Of a DNA stretch of 40,246 nt, positions 10,893-38,546 are shown in pieces. The notes beneath the pieces are model-generated. The model did no database searches. It was not told the DNA's origin and saw only the letters and a list, made by a program, of their open reading frames with translations. The position numbers were made by a program, and so were the translations under genes. Each line of letters begins with the position of its first letter. Position 1 is the first letter of the stretch. The stretch comes from Phlyctochytrium arcticum (taxonomy: Eukaryota; Chytridiomycota; Chytridiomycetes; Chytridiales; Chytridiaceae): assembly GCA_025602905.1 (NCBI GenBank), contig JAHLKI010000068.1, positions 1 to 40,246 on the forward strand. Reading direction: 5' to 3'.

Positions 10893-13800
10893 ATGGCTAT
10901 TGCGAGCGACATACCGGTAGAGGTGACGACAACGTCGACAAGCACGTCGGTGAATGTTGCAGAAGAGAGAAAGGTAATGAAATGTTTGACTTTGTTTATA
11001 ATTGAATTACTGACGGGATTTCTGCACTGTTTAGGGTACGGCCAAGTTGGAAGCGTTGCAAAAGTCAGAAGTCTGGGCCCAGCAGAAATGGGAAGCCGAG
11101 AAAATTTTGGAGGCCAATGCCCCGGCACCTGGTGAACCGGTTCCTGAGAAGTTCATGGGTACTTTCCCTTTCCCCTACATGAACGGTCTGCTGCATTTGG
11201 GACACTCATTCTCGCTTTCCAAGCTGGAATTCGCGGCGGGTTACCAACGTTTGAAGGGAAAGCGTGTCTTGTTTCCCTTTGGATTCCACGTTACGGGTAT
11301 GCCGATCAAGGCATGTGCGGACAAGTTGAAGAAGGAGATTGAGATGTTTGGACCCGAATTTGAGGGTTTCAAGCCGGAGACGGAAGAGGAAGCTGCTGCC
11401 AAAGCCAATGAGGCAAAGCCAGTCACGGCGTCGTCGGCGGATATTGATCCTTCCAAATTTGTCAAGAAGCACGGCAAGGCCAACTCCAAGAGCACTGGAT
11501 TGACCTACCAGTTCCAAATCATGCGGCAAATGGGAATTCCAAATGAGGAAATCAAGAATTTCGCTGATTCAAGGCATTGGTTGTACTACTTCCCCCCTCG
11601 TGCCATTGAGGATCTGAAAGCCTTTGGACTATCAGTTGACTGGCGCCGGTCCTTCTTCACCACGGACATCAACCCTTACTTTGATTCGTTTGTGCGGTGG
11701 CAGTTCAACAAGTTCCGAGCCGCAAATAAGGTCAAGTTTGGCGAGCGATACACAATCTACTCACCGCTGGATGGACAGCCATGCATGGACCACGATCGAG
11801 CCACGGGAGAAGGTGTTGGTGTGCAGGAATACACTGGCATCAAGATGGAAGTCTTGATGAAGGAGCTCTTGGATGTGCCAGAAGCCGAACGCGACCAAGT
11901 CAAGGGTGTCCCAGTTGGTCAAGTTTTGACGTCTAGCAAGACTCAAACTGCCCTGACTGGTCGGAAACTCTACCTTGTTGCTGGCACCCTGCGTCCCGAA
12001 ACTATGTATGGTCAGACTAACTGCTACGTAGGCGTAGACATTACCTACGGCATTTACGCTGTTAGCGACAAGGAGGCTTGGGTTTGCACAGAGCGATCAG
12101 CGAAAAACATGGCCTTCCAGAAGCTATTCGAAGAACCTGGTGTTGTTAAGAAGCTGGGTGAGGTCAAGGGCATCGATCTGATTGGTGTTCCACTGCACGC
12201 TCCTCTTTGCCCCTACGAAAAGGTTTACACCCTCCCCATGGAGGGTGTGTTGGTTAACAAGGGAACTGGTGTAGTTACTTCCGTCCCATCTGATTCTCCT
12301 GATGATTACATTACCCTGCAAGACCTGAAGAAGAAGGCTGCATACTACAATGTCCAATCCAAATGGGTTGAACCCTTCTTTGATACGTTCCCCAACATTA
12401 TCCGCACTCCCAACCTCGGTGACCGCGCCGCTGAAGCTGCCATCAAAAAATACAAGATCAACAGTCAAAAAGACAAGGCTCAACTGGCCGAAGCCAAGAC
12501 TGAGGTCTACCGTGAAGGTTTCAACCACGGTACCTTGATAATTGGTGATTTTGCCGGCACACCTGTCCGTGATGCCAAAGCCTTGATCCGCACCAAGCTG
12601 ATTGAGGAAGGTCTTGCATTCCCATACTGTGAGCCTGAGGGTCTCGTCATTTCTCGTAGTGGAGATGAATGTGTCGTGACTCTGGCCCCGCAGTGGTACA
12701 TGAACTATGGTGAGGAAGGATGGAAGAAGCTCGCCGCTCAGGCCCTTGCGGATATGGAGTTGTACAGCTCGGAAGCCCGCAACCAGTTTGAAAAGACGTT
12801 GGATTGGTTGGGCCAGTGGGCGTGTTCCCGCAGTTTTGGTCTCGGTAGTCGTTTACCCTGGGACCCCCAATACCTGATTGAATCCCTGTCAGACTCGACC
12901 ATTTACATGGCCTACTACACAGTTTCGCACTTGTTGCACGGTGGAAATTTGGACGGTTCCAAAATGGGCGAAGGCAACATTCCTGCTGACCAGCTGACCG
13001 ATGAAGTTTGGGATTACATTCTTATGGATGGACCCAAGCCCACCACCACCACCATCAGTGCCGATATTCTCGAACGTGCCCAGCGTGAATTCAAGTACTT
13101 TTACCCACTGGATCTCCGAGTGTCGGGCAAGGACTTGATCAACAACCACTTGACCTTTTTCATCTACAACCACACGGCCATTTTCCCTCGAGAACAATGG
13201 CCCCGTGGCGTCCGCGTAAATGGTCACTTGCTCCTCAACAGTGAAAAAATGTCCAAGTCCACCGGAAACTTTATGACCATCCATGATGCCCTCAAAGTTT
13301 ATGGTGCCGATGCAACCCGATTCTCCCTCGCGGATGCCGGTGACAGTGTCGAAGACGCCAACTTCCTGGAGAAAACCGCCGACGACGCCATTCTCAAGCT
13401 CTACACAGAACGCGAATGGATTGAAGAGACCCTTGCGCTTTGCGACCAAGGAAAGCTGCGCACCGGCGAGTACACATGGAACGACCGAGTCTTTGAGGCT
13501 GAAATCAACCAGTTCATTGGTGAAATCGATGCGGCGTACCAGCAAATGCTCTACCGTGAAGCCCTCAAACTGGGATTCTACGAATTGTCCAACGCACGAT
13601 CCGAATACCGAAAAGCCACGACCGGCCAAGGCTCTGGCACTTCGGCTGTTGAAGGCGAATCTTACGAAGGGATGCACCAAGATTTGGTCAAACGATACAT
13701 CGAAGTATTGTCTCTCGTCCTTGCCCCCTTCATTCCTCACTGGAGTGAGCACGTCTGGTCCAACCTCCTCCACAAACCCGAATCCATTAAGAAGGCCCTG

Positions 13801-14373
13801 TGGCCTACCTTGACCCGCGACCCGGACGCATCTATCCTGGCCGCCGCTTCCTACATTCGGGCATTGGCATCCAAAGTTCGATCAGCCGAAGACCAATTGG
13901 CCCGCAAGAAGACCAAGAAGGGTGCTCGGCCAGCTAGTCCGGGTCCCGAGAAGCAAGGCCTGCTGCGTTTGTTCGTAGCAACAAGTTTCCCCGAATGGCA
14001 GGATGAAGCTGTTGCGCTCCTGAAAGAAACTTGGGACGAATCCACCAAAACGTTTAACAATACCGAGAAACAACTCCTCATCTCCCGAGGATTTATGAAG
14101 AACAAGCAAATCATGCCGTTTGTTGCGTCTGTGAAGCAAAACGTGGAGCAACTCGGTCCGGCGGCGTTTGACCGGAAGCTCAAGTTTGACGAATTGGCCG
14201 TTCTGTCGCAAAACCGGGATTACATCAAGCGGGAATTGATGACGCTCAAGGTCAACGAGGTGGAGATTGTCGAGGTTGACAAGGTCAAGAGGGGCGGTGA
14301 GGACTGGAAACCAGAGGATGTTAAGAAGGCCGATATGGCTTTGCCTGGTGCCCCTACGTATAGATTGTTGTAA
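10893..14373 (+). CDS. LARS1: Leucyl-tRNA synthetase, cytosolic type
   Basis: Class Ia aminoacyl-tRNA synthetase that charges tRNA-Leu. From the first in-frame ATG (10893) exon 1 ends at 10973, a 61-nt intron follows (10974-11034), and exon 2 runs to 14373, giving 1,139 residues, similar to the roughly 1,090-residue yeast cytosolic enzyme. The HIGH-type motif HLGH is at residues 81-84 after PFPYMNGLL, the inserted CP1 editing domain contains GTGVVTSVPSDSPDD, and KMSKS is at 765-769. The C-terminal region ends with the archaeal/eukaryotic-type extension, so this is the cytosolic and not the bacterial-type mitochondrial LeuRS. The reading frame remains open 336 nt upstream of the ATG and there encodes an Arg/Ser/Ala-rich, acid-poor sequence, raising the possibility of a second, mitochondrial form. 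Confidence 0.95.
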
Positions 14374-15036
14374 ATGTGACGATTTTATGTACTACTTTTT
14401 GATTGCCTCTTGTTCTCATTTTCTCAATTTTTATTTTCACACTCTATTTGAAATGCTCCTCTGCCACATACCATGGGGCCACATCTCTGTTGACAGTGAG
14501 AGCCAAGTGACCTATTGATGCTAAAGGCTATTGGGAAGAGAGTTTCATAAGAGGTGCCCTGCACACCCCAGTGAGAGTCTTCTCGAGCAACGCAAAGTCA
14601 TAGGAGACCTGAATGACAACAATGCGCAGCAAAGTAGCTGGTCCCATTTCTTTTCACCAACCACCATTATAAGCGGTACTTATTCATCATTGCAAACTAA
14701 CATCCTAGGTTCAGTTCAGAGCATTATCAAAAAGTGATCTTGGAACTCGACCTGTTCTTTGATCAGGCAAGGGACGAGTGAAAGAAATTATCATCCAACC
14801 CGGGTGGGGGATGATAACCAAAACAGCATAGAGCTCCGAGTTCGAATCTCGAATAAAGCAAGATTCTTTTTTTGCGTATTTGAGCTCGTACTGGTTCTGA
14901 CCTGTTTTATGACCTGATTGAACCCCAGTGGACCCCCGTTTTGGGCATGCCAAAAGACGCGTCGTGGCACTTCTCCACACTTTTGGCAGTCTAAATAGTA
15001 CGGTAATGAGAATCAAAATTCCAGTCAAACAACAAG
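14374..15036. other. Intergenic flank with a fragment of the tRNA-like repeat
   Basis: Downstream of LeuRS nothing coding is visible. At 14,829-14,850 there is a lone 3' end of the tRNA-like family: GAGCT, T-stem CCGAG, loop TTCGAAT and CTCG, after which the acceptor half is lost (AATAAAGC) but a T-run follows at about 14,866. The conserved upstream block of the next unit (TTCTCCACACTTTTGGCAG) lies at 14,971-14,989. Confidence 0.5.
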
Positions 15037-15317
15037 GCATTGGTGGCGGAATGGGCAAGCCTACTGACACCCATATTGACTGGGAAGGGGGGAATATAAT
15101 ATCCCCTGTCTTATAAGGCATATGTATGCTTTATAGCTGCGGTTCCCAAGGGAGGCGAATCTCCGCTTGTAGTTGGATAACTATCATGGGCTATGGGAAT
15201 ATGGCCCCCGTGTTATCGTGCGGGTGCACCTAAGCAGTTGGTTAGGGAACCATTCTCCTGTGGGAATGGCCCCGTTGCGTTGAAACAGAGCTCCGAGTTC
15301 GAATCTCGGCCAATGCA
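15037..15317 (+). ncRNA. tRNA-like-capped hairpin RNA unit A (281 nt)
   Basis: The unit begins with GCATTGG and ends with CCAATGC plus discriminator A, a perfect 7-bp acceptor stem. TGGCGGAATGG right after the 5' half fits the Pol III A box (TRGYNNARNNG), and GTTCGAATC in the T-loop fits the B box. The T-arm is CCGAG-TTCGAAT-CTCGG. The central about 220 nt contains hairpins such as CATTCTC-CTGT-GGGAATG and GGAG-GCGAAT-CTCC. A T6 run (15,331-15,336) follows 14 nt after the end. The internal closing helix is imperfect here (AGCCT versus GAGCT). Expression is inferred, not shown. Confidence 0.65.
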
Positions 15318-15521
15318 CCCACGACCCATCTTTTTTCGCACTGACCTCTTACACATTCTGACCCTGGTTGATTGGAACAAAACGACACCCCACGTTCTTG
15401 ACATGCCAAAAGACCCGTCATGGTCCCTCTCCACACTTTTATGCCAGCGTCAATGGTAGTTGCCCCTCCACACTTTGGCCCGAGTCATTATGGGAACCAA
15501 AATACCAATCAGATATCAAGA

Positions 15522-15906
15522 GCATTGGTGGCGGAATGGGCAAGCTCATTGACCTCGTTATTGACTTGGTCCCCCATTTATCTCCTCTGGGGAGATTGCT
15601 ACATCGCATGATGTACAGTAGTTACTACCATATCAGGGTGGTATAACTCACTCCCAAGGGAGTCTCCTCACCTTGGGGAGAAGTTGCTGCACCGCAAGGT
15701 GCAGTACTCACCTTCATTGGTGATCACATTCCCGTGGGAATGTTTGCACACCGTCTCTTGTGGGACGGGGTGAGAAGTTGCTGCACCGCAAGGTGCAGTA
15801 CTCACCTTCATTGGTGATCACATTCCCGTGGGAATGTTTGCACACCGTCTCTTGTGGGACGGGGTAAGCCTGAACAGAGCTCCGAGTTCGAATCTCGGCC
15901 AATGCA
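15522..15906 (+). ncRNA. tRNA-like-capped hairpin RNA unit B (385 nt)
   Basis: Same termini as unit A: GCATTGG/CCAATGC acceptor halves, A box TGGCGGAATGG, intact T-arm, discriminator A, and a T9 run at 15,914-15,922. The closing helix AGCTC/GAGCT is perfect. The central region is almost wholly made of short perfect hairpins, for example TACATC-GCAT-GATGTA, ACTCC-CAAG-GGAGT and CTGCACC-GCAA-GGTGCAG, and it contains a 94-bp four-hairpin module in tandem. It lies about 200 bp downstream of unit A in the same orientation, separated by the family's conserved spacer. Confidence 0.68.
15683..15865 (+). repeat. Tandem duplication of a four-hairpin module inside unit B
   Basis: Two near-identical copies start at 15,683 and 15,777 (period 94). 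Each holds, in order, CTGCACC-GCAA-GGTGCAG, TCACC-TTCATT-GGTGA, CATTCC-CGTG-GGAATG and CCGTCTC-TTGT-GGGACGG. The first has a GNRA tetraloop. The copies differ essentially only at their 3' edges. Confidence 0.85.
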
Positions 15907-16292
15907 CTATATCTTTTTTTTTCATTGTGTGCTAAACCACCAGCGTCAAGTGATGCCATATCTGGAAGACACCGTTATGACTATGCGGGACTGCAACTAT
16001 ATTAAAATACCAGTATATTCCTCCATATCCCGCCCGACGCACAGTTTGCGCAGTCGGTGCATGGATGTGTTTGGGAGCATACGGGTCGCAAAGAGCAATG
16101 CGTCGTGAAATGTTTTTTTTTAACTGTGATGAACAACACAAATTCGATTCATACTTTCCGATCAACAGAAACAAACAAGAAACAAAATACAAATGTTGCA
16201 TAGACAAAAGAAAACGGTATTAGTACGTGATATCGGGGGTTATTGGAGGGACATAGAGAGAGAGATCTGTTGATGTTTTTTTTTTGGTTCCT

Positions 16293-18486
16293 CTACTGGG
16301 TGATGGAGGCATACATGGCCGTCAAATGTTCTTGGTAATGTTTTTTAGCTTCATGACGCTAAAAGAAAATAAAGGGTTAGTTGGTGTGTGACAAAAATCT
16401 GTAGGGTTAAAGAGGACGTACTTTGAGCTTGAATGTAGGAGTCATAAGCCCAGACTCGGGGGTCAAGAGAGTAGGGGACAAGTGGACGCTCTTGATGTTT
16501 TCGAAGCCTTTGAGGCCTTCAGCTTTGCCAAATGTTTCCAACTGTTTCAGGACGAATTTGGTGACCTCGGGGTCAGCGCAGAGTTCGGCGAATGATTTGC
16601 CGGTGGTTGGGAGGCCTTGGGCGGCGACCCAGGTTGGGAAGACGTCTTCGTCGGGGACAATGACGGCAACGAGGACGGCTTGGAGAGAGTCACCGTAGAC
16701 AAAGCTCTGGGCGACAATTTCGTGCTTTTGGTAGACGAGTTCGATTTTCTCGGGAGCAATGTACTCGCCTTGAGCCAACTTGAAAATGTTCTTGACACGG
16801 TCAATGATTTGGAGGCGGCCGTTGGCGTCCCATTGGCCTACATCACCGGTATGACACCATCCGTCCGCGTCAAGAGTTTCGGCAGTCTTTTCGGGGGATT
16901 TGTAATAGCCCTTAAAGACGTTGGCGCCGCGAATAAGGATCTCGCCGCGTGGGAAGGGCTTGTCTTGGGAAGTGTAGGACATGGAAGGGACGTCGAGGAG
17001 TTTGACTTCGCAGTGGGGAGATGGGGAACCAATGTGGCCCGAGGAGAGATCTCGGCCATCGGTTTGGGTTGCGCCACCTGAAGTTTCAGTTTGACCGTAG
17101 CCTTCGCAGACCATGGCGGAAAAGCAAACGCGGAGGAAAGTAATGACGTCGCCAGAAATGGGGGCAGCGCCTGTAAGCATGAGACGGACTTTTCCGCCCA
17201 GGCGGGCCCGAACCTTGTTGAAGACTAGGTTGTCCCACAGGCGGTGGGTGGTGTAGCCTTGGGCGAGGTAAGCCTTTTTGGCGGAAAAGGCTTGGTTGAA
17301 CAGGATGGCGCCAATACCACCCTTGGCCTTGACAGACTGTTGGACCTTGTCGTAAATGCGGTTGTAAAGACGCGGGACCGAAGCAAAGATGGTAGGTTTA
17401 AGCTCGGCAACATCATCGAGGAGTTTGAGCGTGTCACCCTGGTAGAAACCGATGCGGCCGCCAACATAAGTAAGACAGACCTGAACGATGCGTTCAAAGA
17501 CGTGGGCGAGAGGCAAGTAGGAAATGTAGCAATCGTCCTTGTTGTAATCGACGAGGGATCCGCCGATCACCAATTGCCGGGTGGCCGCTGTGAATGACAA
17601 CAAGTTGGAGTGGGCAAGCATGACACCCTTGGGCATACCGGTAGTACCACTGGTGTAGCAAATGGTGCAAATGTCGCTGGGTTTGGGGGCGCTGCCAAGG
17701 TGAGGGGTAGCGGCACCTTCGCGCTCTAAATCCAAGTAGGAAATGACTTCGACGTCGTGCTCACGACCAAGGGTGATGAGAGCCTCATCGGGGGTATCCA
17801 TAATGACGAGATGTTTGAGGGAAGGGAGCTTGTCTTTGACTTGGAGCAAGAATTTGGCCTTGTCACAGGTGGCCGTCACGAGGCGGAGCTCTGTTTGGTT
17901 GATGATGTATTCGAGGGCTTCGACGCCGAGGGTATCGTACAAGGGGACAGTAATGAGATTGTTGCAGAAAGAAGCCTGTTCGGCAATGATCCACTCGGGG
18001 CGGTTAATGGAAAAGAGACCGACCGCAGATTCGGGAGTCAAGCCTCGGATGGCAAAACCGGCTCTATTTACAGTTTTGTTTGGTATTTTTGCTGATGCAT
18101 GCATGCACAAAGGACAATGGCCCACTTACGCTAGATTCTTGACTCTCTTGTGGATTTCATTGTAGGTCTGCCAGACGTAAGGGCCGGGGACACCATTGGT
18201 GAGGGGGCGGCTGCCGAGGAAGGGGGAATCGCCCGAAATGCTGACTCCGCGCAAAAAGTTCTCCCAGAGCGTGGTAGCACCTTCGGGATGCACAGCAATG
18301 GGTTTGTCGGCATGGAGGTAGTGTCGGCGGGGCTAACAATTCCCGAAGGGTCGTTAGCAAAATGGACGATTTCGGAGGACGCGTTTTGACGCCAAACCAT
18401 ATCTATCTCACCTTGCCCTCGCCAGGAATATCGGGAGCGCCGGGCGACTCGACCGTGTACATGATCTCGTTGTGGTTTTTGGTCAT
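16293..18486 (-). CDS. ACSL: Long-chain acyl-CoA synthetase (AMP-forming)
   Basis: Activates long-chain fatty acids to acyl-CoA through an acyl-adenylate. Exons on the minus strand are 18486-18412, 18332-18130, 18063-16422 and 16358-16293, giving 661 residues, typical of eukaryotic ACSL/Faa proteins; all junctions keep frame. The AMP-binding P-loop YTSGTTGMPKG starts at residue 229, GYGQTET is at about 414-420, and the acyl-CoA synthetase signature GWCHTGDVGQWDANGRLQIIDRVKN follows, ending in the fatty-acid type FKLAQGEYIAPE. The last exon adds RHEAKKHYQEHLTAMYAS, the usual C-terminal helix. No peroxisomal SKL-type ending and no clear signal peptide are visible. The start is the ATG at 18486 in a CACC-ATG context. 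It lies on the same strand as the fatty acid synthase but 6.7 kb away. Confidence 0.93.
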
Positions 18487-19059
18487 GGTGGGCAGTGTTT
18501 ACAGGTCCAAGATCCTCGGGAGGACAGCTGGAGGAAGGTGAGGAGAAGAAAGAATCTTAGCCGTCGGAACCGCCTTTTGTGGCTGCCTTGCTTTGCTTTG
18601 CGGCTGGCTCGTTGATTTATAGGAATCAAAGACTTAGACTTGAAGGCTGGAGATTGACAAGATTGCTGCTGGCAATGAGCTGGGAAATAAAAGCAGGAGA
18701 AAGTGGAGGGGGGGGGGGGGGGGGGGGGGACTGGTCGGGGCCTCCTCTTTATACACGAGTGTCACGCGCACTATTGTTTGTTTTCCACAAAACCCTTGGC
18801 TCCTCCTTGAATTAAAATGGCGACCACAGGTTCAGCCATAAGTCAGCGGCCCAAAAACTTTATTTCGCCGTCTCGAGATTTCTGTACAAGTACATTTCGG
18901 GCATAGTACTCGAGTATTATGGGCACGCGAAGAGCATTAGGCAGCATGCTGCTGAGGTGCTCGCAAGACACGGGTGGGACATCTCAAGACTTGGGAAATC
19001 TCTGTGGTCAGGATCTGTCGACCGTGGAAACCAAACAGGATGTAGAAAGGAAAGAGTAT
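18487..19059. other. Promoter flank of the acyl-CoA synthetase gene with a G22 tract
   Basis: No coding sequence is recognised. A run of 22 G (18,708-18,729; C-run on the gene's strand) lies about 220 bp upstream of the ACSL start codon. The remainder is unremarkable. Confidence 0.5.
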
Positions 19060-19239
19060 ACATTGCCTGAAATTCCAACTCGGAGCTGGTTGACGCTTCG
19101 GTACTATAAAGAAGAGAGGGTGATCAAGCCTCGCAACTTTTACCATTTCACGACAATCGGCGGTAACTGACACCAATTCATGACAACCTCATCACTTCAA
19201 GGTTGGCCGCCGTGCGCTTGTCCATACCTCCACCAATGC
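19060..19239 (-). repeat. Degenerate copy of the tRNA-like unit (I)
   Basis: On the minus strand the 5' end reads GCATTGG followed by TGGAGGTATGGACAAGC, a decayed version of the family start. The 3' end near 19,060-19,087 reads GAGTTGGAATTTCAGG followed by a damaged acceptor half. No T-run follows. It looks like a decayed, probably inactive copy. Confidence 0.5.
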
Positions 19240-19325
19240 GTGTCCCATTGAGGGGGATTCCACCTTTTATAAACACTGCGTTGGTAGTATGGAGGCGCAT
19301 TAGGACGTGTGCGTCAAAATGAGGT

Positions 19326-19628
19326 CCTAACGCCGAACTCGAAGCTTCTACTGCTCTACTGTGTCATCACCGCTCCTCCTAAATAACTGGGTGAGGGCGA
19401 GTCTCCCGACTCTGGGCTACATGAATGTAACTAGAGATCGTCTGAATATAGACCATGGGATAGTCGGAAATTCGTTCTGCATGAAGGGGACGTAAGTCCG
19501 ACCAGTTGTACTCTAATCACAATTGGCTTTACATCCTTCGCGCCATAAGAGCAAGCATGGTGAAGAAGCATATACAATAAGAGGGTTTGACATTGCCGCA
19601 TGCATGTCGAGCGCTTTACCATCAATGC
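19326..19628 (-). repeat. Degenerate copy of the tRNA-like unit (J)
   Basis: The 3' part shares CAGTAGAAGCTTCGAGTTCG with intact unit D but has lost the acceptor half. The 5' part near 19,628 reads GCATTGATGGTAAAGCGCTC, a decayed form of the start. It is divergent from unit C, just as D is from E, so J/C and D/E appear to be two copies of one divergent pair. Confidence 0.4.
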
Positions 19629-19752
19629 TTGATAGGAAATCCACGCTGCGTTGTATCAGGTCTCTGAGTTTCGGCCGACGCGTCTCTCCACCTGTCAAAA
19701 CGGGGTGCATTTCACCCACGCGCATCAGTAAAGGGACGTCTCTGGCATGAAA

Positions 19753-20327
19753 GCATTGGTGACGGAATGGGCAGGCTCACCGGCATTTGCGAAAATGCAG
19801 GGCATTCTCACTGCTGTGTGCCAGATTTTAGGCTATGATTATGTCCTGAGATCTATACCACAAGACGACTCGCTGCTGGTCTCCTTTCACATTCGTGAGT
19901 TGCGGCCCGCGGTGATAAATTCATCCAGTGAAGACAACCCACTATTGTGAACTGTATGCGTTAGCAACTAACGAAGTAATCCGATGAAGATATACCACTA
20001 CAGTGGATGTCTTCATTGAGACAATTCAACTACTGAAGTAATCCAATGAAGACGTCCCATCAGGGTGGGTCGTGTTCGATGGAGACGCTGCAGCTAATCA
20101 GTGATTCAATGAAGACAACCCAGTGGGTTGTGTTCGTTACTGTCACTACAGCTATTGAAGTAATCCGATGAGGATACTCCGTTGATATGGGTGTGTTCGC
20201 CTGAGATACTGCAGCCCGTTCATAAGCTGATCATCCCTGCATTTGTATAGCACTAGCTACACGCAATTGTGCGGATATAAGCATCGCACACAGGACGAGC
20301 CTCCGAGTTCGAATGTCGGCCAATGCA
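19753..20327 (+). ncRNA. tRNA-like-capped hairpin RNA unit C (575 nt, longest)
   Basis: Termini GCATTGG/CCAATGC pair perfectly. The A box has one change (TGACGGAATGG), the B box is intact, and the T-stem has one mismatch next to the loop (CCGAG/GTCGG). The internal closing helix is GGCTC/GAGCC where other copies have AGCTC/GAGCT, a compensatory double change. The 5' part carries GCATT-TGCGAA-AATGC, shared with D, E and F apart from its loop. The centre consists of about five imperfect units of 58-64 bp. A T4 run (20,342-20,345) follows 14 nt after the discriminator. Confidence 0.62.
19920..20216 (+). repeat. About five tandem ~60-bp hairpin units within unit C
   Basis: The phrase GAAGTAATCC(G/A)ATGA recurs at about 19,973, 20,035 and 20,157, with a variant near 20,099 and an outlying first unit at about 19,920. 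Each unit carries its own short hairpin: CCAC-TACA-GTGG, CCCA-TCAGGG-TGGG, ACAACCC-AGT-GGGTTGT, and a weaker one in the last unit. The hairpin sequences differ while pairing is largely kept. Confidence 0.65.
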
Positions 20328-20616
20328 ACTTAGACATCTTGTTTTGCATGATTTTGCCCTCTACACATCCATATCGATGGAACAAACACCAGGCGCTACG
20401 GGGTCTCCACACTTTGCCGGAGTGCTGACTATAATGCCTTTTCATTGACACCTTCAGTAGATCACGGGCTGCTCTCAAATCTGCGATTGACGGTTGTCAA
20501 AAGCTGCAAGACGCGCGTGGTTGTCTCCCCATGCTGCGCAAAAATGACGCGTGTCAAAAACGGGGTGTTGCGTTCCAAGGTGAGAGCTAACCCACCCAAA
20601 AAAACTGTAATGTAAG

Positions 20617-20957
20617 TGCATTGGCCGAGATTCGAACTCGGAGCTTCTACTGTGATACTTATCATCCGCGCAGTTGCGTGGATGATAAGCGTTATCCGTC
20701 ATCTCACGAAAATCGTGAAACGACGGGTATGCATCCCGCAGCCGGGAACTAACCCAGCTGGGGGACGAGGCAGTACGTCTTGCTGATGGCGAGAAGTAGT
20801 GCTGCGATGAACATCGCCCAACGCTCGCGGCGTGGCCGAGTTCAATTGATATAATATCCGGGCCAGGTGAGTCCCTAGCCTGGATTTATAACACAGTAGT
20901 GAAATATGCCTGCATTATTGCAAATGCCGGGGAGCTTGCCCATTCCGCCACCAATGC
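20617..20957 (-). ncRNA. tRNA-like-capped hairpin RNA unit D (341 nt)
   Basis: Minus-strand unit with perfect GCATTGG/CCAATGC ends, discriminator A, A box TGGCGGAATGG, and T-arm CCGAG-TTCGAAT-CTCGG. It shares the 5' hairpin GCATT-TGCAAT-AATGC with E and F. The closing helix is AGCT/AGCT (4 bp). A T7 run (20,598-20,604 on +) lies just downstream. It is divergent from unit E with 165 bp between 5' ends and convergent with unit C. Confidence 0.65.
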
Positions 20958-20998
20958 TTTTGTTGTCTGACTGGTTAATTTGGTTCTCATATCATTGA

Positions 20999-21018
20999 CT
21001 CCGGCAAAGTGTGGAGAG
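20999..21018 (-). promoter_or_regulatory. Conserved upstream block of the tRNA-like units
   Basis: On the minus strand this reads CTCTCCACACTTTGCCGGAG, 42-61 bp upstream of unit D. Close variants lie upstream of A (14,971-14,989), B (15,465-15,484), F (23,269-23,288), G (23,856-23,876, displaced by an extra ~70 bp) and H (about 24,399-24,410). Fixed position and conservation suggest an external promoter element or simply shared ancestry of the spacer; the sequence cannot separate these. Confidence 0.45.
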
Positions 21019-21122
21019 GGGACCATGGCGCGTGGCTTCACCTGTCAAACTGGGTTGCGCACAATTTTACTTTAGTCACGCGAATCATTAGGGGTACTGG
21101 AGAGCACACTCCTAACATGAAA

Positions 21123-21549
21123 GCATTGGTGGCGGAATGGGCAAGCTCGCCGGCATTTGCAATAATGCAGGCATATCTCACTACTGTGTGATAATTCGGG
21201 CTATAAGTATATCTTATACTCTGAGTTCTAAACTGGACGAGTCCTCCCACTACTGGGTGGCATTCGTTCAGAGAATCTGAAGGACTCTGCTCACAATGGG
21301 GAGTAGGATCCCTCAGCGATCCTGATGAACGACGTCACGCGATATCGCCGCTGTCGCTATAGCGGGCGGCTGCGCTATATCGCGGGCCGGCGTTCACAGC
21401 AATACTGTTGAAATCATTCCCAGGATCCGGGTTTTCTATCAACAGCGATACTAGTGGGTGTCTTCCCACGACACGAACGTGGGTTAAGACCTCCAATAGT
21501 AAAAATCATACTGTAGTAGGAGCTCCGAGTTCGAATCTCGGCCAATGCT
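21123..21549 (+). ncRNA. tRNA-like-capped hairpin RNA unit E (427 nt)
   Basis: GCATTGG/CCAATGC ends pair perfectly; the discriminator is T rather than A. A and B boxes are intact, closing helix AGCTC/GAGCT is perfect, and the D-stem-like GCG/CGC also fits here. The centre holds TTCAGA-GAA-TCTGAA, GGATC-CCTCAGC-GATCC, a long GC-rich palindromic structure (21,326-21,396) and GTCTT plus CCCACG pairing with CGTGGG plus AAGAC. A T4 run lies at 21,561-21,564. Confidence 0.65.
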
Positions 21550-22994
21550 CTCACACTTTATTTTGCATCACTTTGCACTTTACACATTTCTGTATGGATG
21601 GAATAAACCGCTCCGTTTCTGACATGCAAAGAGACACGGTTATGGTGCGTGCGCTCCACACTTTGACTGGGTTCGGACTTTGATGACTTTGATTGCGCAC
21701 GACGTCCACGAAGCACCAGGTAAACGGGACACACTCGCACTGGCTGTAGTATATAACATTGCATTCTCCGTGTACAATGTACAAATGCTACACGCATGGC
21801 GTCTCTGGTACTGTTTCTCCCACGGGATCCATCCCGGGGAGCGCTATTCATTGGCAGCCCCGTAGTGACTCAAAAAGTATCAAGAAAGAAATTATTATAC
21901 CAGAATCGTCCAAGAAATCGGTCTCTATACACGTCCGATTTCCGTAGCGTATGTTAACGTCCCTGGCCGTAGAAATCCCACGGTGTCCATCTCAAGGTGA
22001 GCCGAAAACCATTCGCTGGCAGCCCACATTAATTCAAAAATTATCAAGGAAAGAAAGCTCTATACCAGAATTGTCTAAGGAATCCATTTCTAGCCACATC
22101 TGGTGTCCGTAGCGTATGTGCATATCCCTGGCCGCCGAAATGCATGTCAAAACTGCGATGAACATTTTGGCAATTTTCGCGTTGCTGGCATACACGAAGA
22201 CTCCGACGCGACAAGGTTTTATTCCGGTTTTGGAAGCAGCAGTCTCCAATTGGAATTTTTAACAACCCAAAATGAAATAAATGACTATGTCGCGGTGAGT
22301 GCTCGTCTGGCCCAGCTGGGCCAGCGGAGTTTTAAAATCTGTATAGTCGGAGCATATCGGAAGTCGGAAAGTATCGGAAGAATTATGTGAATGGGCAACT
22401 TGGGCAAGGCTCTCAGCAAGGCTGCTCTCACGTACCAACTGACGATTGGAGACTTACAGGGAGCAAGGGATGAATAGCTGGGCAGCTGAACACCGTTATA
22501 GAGGCGAGAGCTACGCTTTTTTCTAGTGTCAAGAGTGTCATTGCCCTTTAATTCGAGTGTCAGAGCATGCTATTTCTGTTTGGAGTAAACCCGACTGAAC
22601 AGCGTTTGTTCCTATTGTTATCACAACTGCTCTCCCAGCTCTTGGACCTTCTCAAACATACTAGCCATCATCATAGAAACATACTCTATCTGAGCCTTGA
22701 GCACAGCATCGTCTCAAGATCAAAATATAGTTGCTACTCAAACGACAATTTGAACGCATTGGAAGCGGTGGTATGGGCGGAAACCGCCCAATTGAGCACC
22801 TTCAGTCACGTTCAGTGGATCTCCGGGCTGGTACCAAAACTGTGCTTGGCAAATTTCAAAACGGTCCAGATATTGATGGTTTCCCATTAGTGCTGCGCAA
22901 AAATAGAATACTCGAGTCGGACGCGTCTCGCGTGCATGTCAAAATGGGGAGCATGACTAGTCAAAAAAAAGACAGTGGGAAAAAAAGAAGATCG
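21550..22994. other. Gene-poor region between tRNA-like units, with a direct repeat
   Basis: No convincing gene. The left end is the family's downstream spacer, including CTCCACACTTTG. An imperfect direct repeat occupies 21,851-21,976 and 22,015-22,141. A short open segment at 22,621-22,713 (-) reads like a protein C-terminus but has no supported upstream exon. Confidence 0.5.
21851..22141 (+). repeat. Imperfect direct repeat, two copies of ~126 bp
   Basis: Copies at 21,851-21,976 and 22,015-22,141 share GGCAGCCC, TATACCAGAAT, CCGTAGCGTATGT and CCCTGGCCG in the same order, with many point differences. Origin unknown; no coding sequence or terminal inverted repeats seen. Confidence 0.7.
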
Positions 22995-23217
22995 TGCATT
23001 GGCGGAGATTCGAACTCGGGGCTCCGGGTGGTACTTATAAATCACACAAAGGTATGGATGATAAATGACGGCCCTCGCTAGGCCATACTTAACCCAGCCA
23101 GGGGGGCAATGCAGTATGTTTTGCTTGATATCGAGAACTACTTATTTGTCACACAGTAGTAAGATATGTCTGCATTATTGCAAATGCCAGTGAGCTTGCC
23201 CATTCCGCCACCAATGC
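22995..23217 (-). ncRNA. tRNA-like-capped hairpin RNA unit F (223 nt, shortest)
   Basis: Minus-strand unit with perfect acceptor halves, discriminator A, A box TGGCGGAATGG and B box GTTCGAATC. The T-stem has one mismatch (CCGAG/CTCCG). The closing helix is reduced to GCTC/GAGC. It shares with D and E the hairpin GCATT-TGCAAT-AATGC and the following TCAC/GTGA-like segment. A T7 run follows at 22,980-22,986 (on +). This shortest copy is the best model for the minimal fold. Confidence 0.62.
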
Positions 23218-23268
23218 TTTCAATATCTGATTGGTATTTTTGGTTCCCATATCGTTGCCTCCGGCAAG

Positions 23269-23288
23269 GTGTGGAGAGAGACCTTGAC
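23269..23288 (-). promoter_or_regulatory. Conserved upstream block of unit F
   Basis: Minus-strand CTCTCCACACCTTGCCGGAG, 52-71 bp upstream of unit F, followed by ATATGGGAACCAAAAATACC and then the unit start. The same order of blocks precedes units B and D. It lies in the 139-bp spacer between unit G's 3' end and unit F's 5' end. Confidence 0.45.
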
Positions 23289-23356
23289 GCGTTTCTTCCA
23301 TGTCAAAAACCGGGCCCGTTTGGAACATGCTCCAGTCCCCAAAAAAGTATTGTGAG

Positions 23357-23746
23357 TGCATTGGCCGAGATTCGAACTCGGAGCTCTGTCAGAAGACTCG
23401 GAACTACCACTACGGATATAATCACCACGAACCACATTTGTAATAAATGTGGGGTACGTGCCATAACTCTTGTTATCGCACGGAAAACCATTCATCACAT
23501 TAATGAGTGGGAAAGTGCAGATACTGTGCGCATCTGCGAAACTATGTTCGATCGTTTCGATCGGATGGAACCGAACGCTCATTGCGTTGCGGTGAATTTG
23601 ACCGTGCATCCAAGTACACGGTCAAGGGGGGCGATTGGCATTGAAGCCAATCAGTTGGGTGATACGTGATGGACGTCCGACAAGAGGGGGTTGCTTTATG
23701 ATCTAAGATCAATAAGTTGAGAGCTTGCCCATTGCGCCACCAATGC
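23357..23746 (-). ncRNA. tRNA-like-capped hairpin RNA unit G (390 nt)
   Basis: Perfect GCATTGG/CCAATGC ends, discriminator A, T-arm CCGAG-TTCGAAT-CTCGG, closing helix AGCTC/GAGCT. The A box has a G-to-C change at a free position (TGGCGCAATGG) and still fits the consensus. The 5' region differs from C-F: it carries the palindromic GATC-TTA-GATC hairpin shared with H. A T6 run follows (23,341-23,346 on +). It lies head-to-tail with H and F. Confidence 0.65.
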
Positions 23747-23974
23747 TTTCAGTGTTTGTGAATGAATTTTGGCACACTTAGAACTGACGCGATAAGTGCG
23801 GCGAAACAGGGATGCTTTTGTTGTCTGAGTGGCATGTTCGGTTCTCTATCATTGTCTCCAGCACAAGTGTGGAGAGCGCCACGTCTCTCCACCTGTCAAA
23901 AACGGGGTATTTTGTTCCAAACAGGTCAGAACATGCTCAGACCTCACCCAATTCAAAAAAAAATGTATTGTGAG

Positions 23975-24350
23975 TGCATTGGCCGAGATTCGAACTCGGA
24001 GCTCATCTGTGCGTTATCATCATCAAGCACCCGGCCCACACTAGGGCCAAGGTGCCACCTCAACCAAGGTGAAAATCACCTGTACCCACATGTTGACATA
24101 GGGGCACCCTACCGATCTTGGATCGCCAAGGTGCCACCTCATCCGGTGAAGATCCCCTATACCCACATGTTGACATAGGGGCACCCTACCGATCTAAGAT
24201 CGGTAAAGTGGATAATAAGTTACAGATTGTGGATTTTGGCAACGGTTGCTTTGGGGGCTAAGCCCGCAATGCTGGTGTTGCCAGAGTGAGGATTGCATTT
24301 ACGATCTAAGATCAATAAGCCGGAGAGCTTGCCCATTCCGCCACCAATGC
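23975..24350 (-). ncRNA. tRNA-like-capped hairpin RNA unit H (376 nt)
   Basis: Perfect acceptor halves, discriminator A, A box TGGCGGAATGG, intact T-arm and closing helix AGCTC/GAGCT; T9 run at 23,955-23,963 (on +). The 5' region shares the GATC-TTA-GATC hairpin with G. The centre contains a duplicated 79-bp hairpin module. First unit of the minus-strand array H, G, F. Confidence 0.66.
24047..24205 (-). repeat. Duplicated 79-bp hairpin module inside unit H
   Basis: Two copies start (on +) at about 24,047 and 24,126. Both contain AAGGTGCCACCTCA, CCCACATGTTGACATAGGGG and CCGATCT. One copy forms ACCGATC-TAA-GATCGGT and can pair CCCCTAT with ATAGGGG; the other forms GGTGA-AAA-TCACC. The two copies differ mostly in stem sequences. 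Confidence 0.7.
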
Positions 24351-25195
24351 GTTTTGTGTTTGTGAATGATTTTTGAGACACTTATGACTGACGCGCCGAG
24401 TGTGGAGAAATGGAGTTGCGCAGTACGAGATGGGTGCACTGGTACGCAAAGACAACCAAACCCGGACGTAGAAACAGAGCTGTGGCCCCGTTTTCAATTA
24501 GGCCCTTGGTCTTTGATACTGCATTTGTAGAGTATGTGAACCGAAAGCTACGCGGTATGACCTGTTTGCGTTGCAAATGTATACTGCGCGCGTTAATCGC
24601 AGCTTGAAAAACGTGATATTGGCGACGGGTTCGCTGGGAAACTACCACATTGTGCTCGGGTTTCAACGCACTGGTTTTCACGCCTTGTTGGGTAGGTTGG
24701 TTGGTCAAGTGGGTCTGATGGGGAGGTAATGAGATGCGATGGGCTGCGTCAGTTTATGCCGCATGTGAGGTGACTAACACGGACGTTCATGGAAAACAAA
24801 GAACCAGATCGAAAGACCGGAAAGCCAACAAGAACAGTATGTGCAACAAAATCCAACTCTCTCAATTTGAATATAGTTACAAAAACAGAAGAATGATAAA
24901 AAACAACAAAATAAAATGATACAAAAAAAAAGTGTCTCTCAAAGAAAATAGTGTCATCTCAACCAACGTAAAAAATAATCTAAACTAAAGGCTCTTGGTG
25001 TCAAAGCAGGTCGAAAAGGTCTCTCTTCCTTTTGTTCCTTTTCCGTTTCCAGTTCCCATAGTATGCTTGTTTGTCATTTGGGTGGTGAGGAATGATGGGA
25101 CAATGAAATAAACGAAAAAAATGGGTGGTATATGGGATACGCCTTGTTGTGTTGGTGTATGCGTGCGTGAGAATGCGTGAATGGTGATAATGGTC
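24351..25195. other. Intergenic region and 3' flank of the fatty acid synthase gene
   Basis: The left end is the upstream spacer of unit H. The A-rich stretch 24,780-24,990 and the remainder up to the FAS stop codon are probably FAS 3' untranslated and terminator sequence. No gene recognised. Confidence 0.5.
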
Positions 25196-38472: not shown

Positions 38473-38546
38473 GCTTCCGTGGCGCAATTGGCTAGCGCGT
38501 CCGACTGTTAATCGGGAGGTTGCCAGTTCAAGCCTGGCCGGAAGCG
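38473..38546 (+). tRNA. tRNA-Asn(GUU): tRNA-Asn (anticodon GTT)
   Basis: Full cloverleaf of 74 nt. Acceptor GCTTCCG pairs with CGGAAGC, discriminator G. D-arm GGCGCAATTGGCTAGCGC, anticodon loop CTGTTAA (anticodon GTT) in a 5-bp stem with one G-U pair, T-arm GCCAG-TTCAAGC-CTGGC. A T5 run (from about 38,550) follows as a Pol III terminator. No intron. It is a useful contrast to the expanded tRNA-like units elsewhere in the window. Confidence 0.96.

Follow-up and report, generated by a model that had tools for sequence, protein, structure and literature searches.

In tmRNA, a tRNA-like acceptor and T-arm are combined with a poor D-stem, and a structured insert of a few hundred nucleotides replaces the anticodon arm. 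tmRNA belongs to bacteria and some organelles. The A and B boxes stand close together in tRNA-derived SINEs, BC1 and 4.5SI RNAs, whose 3′ end is unrelated to tRNA. tmRNA is described in PMC3753655, and the same paper describes artificial tRNA scaffolds, in which the anticodon stem-loop is replaced by another RNA and the acceptor, T- and D-arms are kept. Neurospora milR-4, as described in PMC3547838, is transcribed by Pol III and includes a tRNA part, and RNase Z is involved in its processing, and PMC7279448 assigns type 2 Pol III promoters to tRNA-derived SINEs, BC1 and 4.5SI RNAs.

Here we analyzed tRNA-ended units in one genome, that of the fungus Phlyctochytrium arcticum (a 31.5-Mb assembly of 91 contigs), using DNA sequence alone. 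The window, i.e. the whole stretch of DNA analyzed, is 40,246 nt long and belongs to contig C68; C2, C5, C8 and similar labels denote other contigs of the same assembly. Window positions 170-27684 aligned to C5 in two blocks (99.9%), so each window unit is also present on C5, and C68/C5 twins were counted once. The two contigs do not differ within the eight window units. Their differences cluster at the contig start and near a G-run at 18.7 kb, look like assembly noise, and are therefore uninformative about selection; G runs occupy positions 4-201 and 18708-18729, and the C5 differences close to them are probably noise of this kind.

The family consists of 12 two-ended units genome-wide, eight in the window (u1 to u8) and four elsewhere, plus decayed copies. 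The eight coordinate pairs given by a first-pass annotation of the window were right; a decayed copy (19239-19060, minus strand) and a lone 3′ end (14831-14852) had been overlooked.

15037..15317, plus strand: u1, 281 nt; tRNA-like 5′ end, interior, T-arm and acceptor complement
15522..15906, plus strand: u2, 385 nt; 94-bp tandem duplication in the interior
19753..20327, plus strand: u3, 575 nt; contains five hairpin modules related to one another; single-base deviations in the A box, the B box and the T-stem
20617..20957, minus strand: u4, 341 nt; interior has a diverged relative on C8
21123..21549, plus strand: u5, 427 nt; discriminator is T, not A
22995..23217, minus strand: u6, 223 nt; single T-stem mismatch
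23357..23746, minus strand: u7, 390 nt
23975..24350, minus strand: u8, 376 nt; 77-bp tandem duplication in the interior
C2:827926-828161: two-ended unit outside the window
C2:828256-828493: two-ended unit outside the window
C5:798416-798724: two-ended unit outside the window
C5:823165-823519: two-ended unit outside the window
19060..19239, minus strand: decayed copy, about 180 nt; both ends mutated yet recognisable
14831..14852, plus strand: isolated 3′ end in decay, with a T-arm that lacks the acceptor complement
C5:798301: decayed relative; lone 3′ end
C8:359.5-359.9k: decayed relative; interior 71% like u4, both ends damaged
C8:776601: decayed relative; 3′ end

We consider it probable, though well short of assured, that the units are non-coding Pol III RNA genes of P. 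arcticum whose transcripts would mature like tRNAs and in which a self-folding insert replaces the anticodon arm. All eight window units begin with GCATTGG and end with CCAATGC plus one base. In a profile of pairwise identity over the 12 units, ungapped from each end, the 5′ side scored 1.00 at nt 1-7, 0.97 at nt 8-18 and 0.84 at nt 19-24; outside the cap, values were 0.37 for nt 25-60 and 0.40 for the 40 nt upstream. The 3′ side scored 1.00 in the acceptor, 0.98 in the T-arm and 0.69 in the five nucleotides before the T-arm, with 0.25 in the 30 nt further inward and 0.36 in the 40 nt downstream. The annotated pattern of conserved ends around a variable middle is therefore borne out, with both acceptor strands at 1.00 and the sequence just inside and outside at 0.25-0.40. 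Neither Pol III box includes the acceptor strands, so their identity calls for more than promoter function; an end-processing or structural role would account for it.

The same profile bears on the view that the units are functionless tRNA-derived repeats, SINE-like or tRNA relics with insertions, that persist through local duplication. In keeping with it, copies are clustered, tandem duplication enlarges interiors, and decayed copies exist (window 19239-19060, C8:359k and lone 3′ ends), indicating that members of the family also die. However, the ends are invariant while flanks and interiors have lost most similarity, two-ended copies number only 12, and the interiors fold far beyond chance. 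The first-pass annotation had named transposition with target duplications as a sign against RNA genes: no consistent target duplication was found, and short matches of 5-6 nt occur in 3 of the 12 units. We consider the repeat explanation improbable.

The units are few and clustered in the genome. A generic scan of the window for any T-arm (stem ≥4/5) followed directly by 7 nt that could pair fully with a 7-mer ≤800 nt upstream returned 11 rows: the eight units, a cross-pairing of two neighbours, the tRNA-Asn at 38473, and one hit without an A box. The same scan of 100 window shuffles gave a mean of 0.74 hits, none with an A box. Genome-wide, the 5′ 24-mer (≤3 mismatches) occurs at 21 places and the 3′ 24-mer at 32, 11 among those listed being tRNA-Gly sequence. 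The D-arm 17-mer (≤2 mismatches) occurs at 29 places, 19 of which are family (8 on C68, 9 on C5, 2 on C2). As for units with other acceptors, the B box was absent after the D-arm 17-mer at all six places examined out of the 10 non-family ones (those on C4, C10, C18 and C44 being left out); at the C36 place, the complement of the seven preceding bases is found 137 nt on.

By tRNA numbering, the units retain nt 1-25 and 44-73, i.e. a tRNA without its anticodon arm. The acceptor pairs 7/7 in every unit. The T-stem is complete (5/5) in 10 of 12 units, with one mismatch each in u3 and u6 that we count against the favored explanation; a T-arm had been annotated in all eight window units, and its stem is intact in six. 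The D-stem is degenerate, with 1-3 of 4 pairs across the 12 units. An inner helix between the 3′ strand of the D-stem and nt 44-48 forms, in a fixed register, 5/5 pairs in five units, 4/5 in four, 3/5 in two and 2/5 in one, and its completeness in only 5 of 12 units likewise counts against our reading. By eye, the inner helix of u3 is AGGCTC/GAGCCT, both strands being altered, and in the C5:798416 unit a GAGCT is found nine bases deeper inside. Retention of nt 1-25 and 44-73 would also suit tRNA genes interrupted by very large introns whose splicing yields ordinary tRNAs. Yet the D-stem is degenerate, ordinary tRNA-Gly(GCC) genes are present at no fewer than 11 places (5 of the 11 listed were confirmed by ARAGORN), and no unit has an anticodon stem of 5/5 pairs at the insert borders (mean 3.50 versus 3.61 in shuffles), a test that is weak because a true tRNA-Gly control reached only 4. 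We regard such introns as highly improbable.

The tRNA identity of the cap can be stated more sharply than in the first-pass annotation: P. arcticum's own tRNA-Gly(GCC) has the same first ten bases, the same acceptor complement and the same A73 as the units, and what the units lack is the anticodon arm. Over the last 25 nt, 22 match tRNA-Gly, and two of the three changes are the two sides of one T-stem pair. In the first 26 nt, comprising the D-arm, 19 positions match the window tRNA-Asn versus 17 for tRNA-Gly, and the exact T-arm is found at seven other genome places, one of them inside a tRNA; the descent of the cap is therefore Gly-like, though not with certainty. The units might also be imagined as a tmRNA-like RNA charged (with glycine) and acting on ribosomes. 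The plan resembles that of tmRNA (an acceptor and T-arm, a D-loop lacking a good D-stem, a long folded insert and, where it forms, an extra helix), and G1-C72 and C2-G71 occur in 12/12 units and A73 in 11/12. Glycine identity in yeast, as given in PMC9976931, includes C35 and C36. Both are missing from the units, which makes glycine charging less likely, and no excess of open frames, as expected of a tag frame or small protein, was present in any of the 12 units, with a very short frame still possible. We consider a charged RNA of this type very unlikely.

The A and B boxes lie within the two conserved ends. The A box (TRGYNNARNNG at nt 8) and the B box (GTTCGAATC) are each present in 7/8 window units and 11/12 genome units, u3 (19753-20327) being the exception in both cases, so that the boxes annotated for all eight units hold for all but this one. 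The annotated T-run past the discriminator was recovered throughout: a run of at least four T begins 8-15 nt beyond it in 12/12 units, with a length of 4-9, against a background chance of 0.126 for such a run within 20 nt. Within the units, T≥4 runs number 7 versus 13.4 in mononucleotide shuffles, of which 4/300 were that low. Two features count against the favored reading: internal T4 runs occur in 7/12 units, and the spacing between boxes A and B is 195-547 bp. The usual spacing given in PMC7279448 is 30-40 bp; at yeast SNR6, widely separated sites are brought together by a nucleosome, according to PMC9136082.

Interiors are about 170-520 nt long. Their folding z scores against shuffles range from -0.9 to -10.8 in the 12 units (mean -5.7; some values may be accentuated by the tandem duplication within u2, u3 and u8), compared with -1.9 to +1.4 (mean 0.0) in 20 control stretches of the window's plus strand; whole units score -2.1 to -9.7. 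The annotated richness in hairpins therefore holds for the family, and u1, not significant on its own (z -0.9), is its exception and another point against our reading. Antisense interiors have a mean z of -4.1, and the sense strand is lower in 10/12. Between u4 and its C8 relative, a single pair of copies of which the C8 one is damaged, 76/92 pairs are kept versus 64.1 expected had the same substitutions been placed at random (p 0.0004), or 73/92 versus 65.0 by the other structure (p 0.009). Double-sided pair changes between these copies show no excess (4 versus 2.3, p 0.19; other structure 4 versus 2.1, p 0.16). In u3, one hairpin is common to five modules and 3/14 of its pairs are changed on both sides, with no net covariation energy among the modules; in the two modules of u8, 0/24 pairs are. 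Covariation across the compared interiors is weak, which we also count against our reading.

Sequence sharing among interiors (BLAST, E 0.01) is confined to u3-u6 plus C8, u7-u8, and the C2 pair, and interiors grow by tandem duplication (94 bp in u2, 77 bp in u8, the modules of u3). Searched against the whole genome, 10 of the 12 interiors (two other C5 units were left out) matched the family only, one of these comparisons covering 40 of 51 candidates; the queried interiors therefore do not look like pieces of genes or transposons.

Hairpin strings of this kind raise the possibility of miRNA-like or siRNA precursors: a tRNA-capped transcript would be made by Pol III, cut by Dicer and loaded by Argonaute, with changing targets driving turnover of the interior. 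Piwi domains are encoded at five or more genome places (at least eight matches; C1, C2, C7, C9 and C16), so P. arcticum probably has RNA interference, and, since Pol III milRNAs are known from fungi (PMC3547838), small-RNA production is the main rival. On the other side, predicted stems of ≥20 bp (bulges allowed) are found in only 3/12 units, and a small-RNA source would presumably not need to keep both an exact tRNA-like 5′ end and an exact 3′ end. We judge this rival unlikely.

The cap is kept exact, whereas the interior varies freely in sequence and length but not in its tendency to fold. This pattern suits a division of labor in which the cap provides for transcription, processing and stability and the folds of the interior do the acting. 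For the favored reading of the units as tRNA-like Pol III RNA genes, we infer the transcription, processing, elbow and role of the insert as follows. TFIIIC would bind the A and B boxes within the two conserved ends, and Pol III would read through the insert and stop at the T-run. Cleavage ahead of GCATTGG and behind the discriminator would fall to RNase P and tRNase Z, guided by the acceptor, T-arm and elbow, giving a predicted RNA of 223-575 nt that runs from GCATTGG to CCAATGCA. The 3′ strand of the D-stem would tend to pair with the bases before the T-arm, so that the insert would be mounted on an additional helix in the manner of tmRNA. The tRNA-like cap would supply promoter, processing signals and stability, making it a natural ‘tRNA scaffold’. 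The effector would be the hairpin domain, which changes fast and most likely offers a surface for binding protein or RNA, as a decoy or sponge. End-confined conservation, boxes, terminators, folds and clustered copies speak for the RNA gene family first proposed from the annotation; T-stem mismatches and decayed copies detract from it.

The unit cluster is flanked by a cytosolic leucyl-tRNA synthetase (LeuRS) gene (11047-14373) and a fatty acid synthase, and an AMP-binding-enzyme gene sits between u2 and u3. The window LeuRS is 100% identical to a P. arcticum protein and 77% like a Spizellomyces sp. ‘palustris’ protein, the next among the matches listed. The array lies directly downstream of the LeuRS gene, which may be coincidence; a tie between the two was considered and dropped because the caps are Gly-like. 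In the spacers, CCACACTTT occurs 54-62 nt upstream of the 5′ end in 4/12 units (u1, u2, u4 and the C5:798416 unit), with an additional occurrence in u2 at -91, and TGACATG elements are repeated between units; these may be upstream elements or relics of duplication. The u5-u6 spacer (about 21702-22537) contains a dispersed repeat that is not tRNA-like, with at least about 50 genome match rows at 65-82% (short pieces up to 100%) and several rows per place.

Searches for relatives were largely negative. At the gathering threshold, the sole Rfam match in the whole window was the tRNA-Asn at 38473, and at E up to 2 there was none in window 14700-24500, including the tRNA (RF00005) and tmRNA models, or in the four loci L065, L068, L070 and L072. 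The exact 20-nt 5′ and 22-nt 3′ patterns matched 0 viral contigs; the 5′ pattern matched one prokaryotic contig, where the 251 available bases that follow contain no GTTCRA, and the match was taken as chance. Among the matches listed in open-licence PMC papers, no title or abstract start described such RNAs.

Should transcription and maturation proceed as predicted, the RNAs would represent a natural tRNA scaffold in a eukaryote: for Pol III expression and tRNA-type processing in vivo, RNAs of several hundred nucleotides would need no more than acceptor, T-arm and D-loop, even where up to about 550 bp separate the A and B boxes. In shape, the family would be a eukaryotic analogue of tmRNA, and it would add rapidly evolving RNAs to a fungal lineage that has received little study. 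More tentatively, and as a possibility we would not put forward with confidence, the units may form a multigene class of tmRNA-shaped RNAs in a eukaryotic nuclear genome, with a tRNA-Gly-like cap selected for promoter function, processing and perhaps CCA addition or charging, and with a hypervariable folded domain in place of the anticodon arm whose hairpin modules duplicate in tandem in an arms-race-like manner (e.g. with RNA-binding proteins, ribosome-acting factors or parasites).

The units differ from each described system in part of their plan. Like tRNA-derived SINEs, BC1 and 4.5SI RNAs, they carry a tRNA-derived type 2 Pol III promoter, whereas their boxes are 195-547 bp apart and their 3′ end is the tRNA's own. 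With Neurospora milR-4 as described they share a fungal host, a tRNA part, Pol III transcription and RNase Z processing, the last two here predicted from sequence; in milR-4, however, whole tRNAs stand beside a hairpin, and in the units two halves of one cap enclose the insert. The units look like the biochemists' trick for stable RNAs, the anticodon arm being swapped in them for a long, fast-changing, hairpin-rich insert that occupies the place of the anticodon stem-loop; the artificial scaffold of the published account is engineered in bacteria, whereas the units are natural and eukaryotic, with a degenerate D-stem. Unlike tmRNA, they are encoded by multiple genes of a fungal nuclear genome, carry Pol III boxes, T-runs and a Gly-like acceptor, and show no tag-frame evidence, no conservation of the interior between members and no Rfam match. 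Like tmRNA, they have a tRNA-like acceptor and T-arm, a poor D-stem and a long folded insert for the anticodon arm, and on our best reading tmRNA is the nearest architecture.
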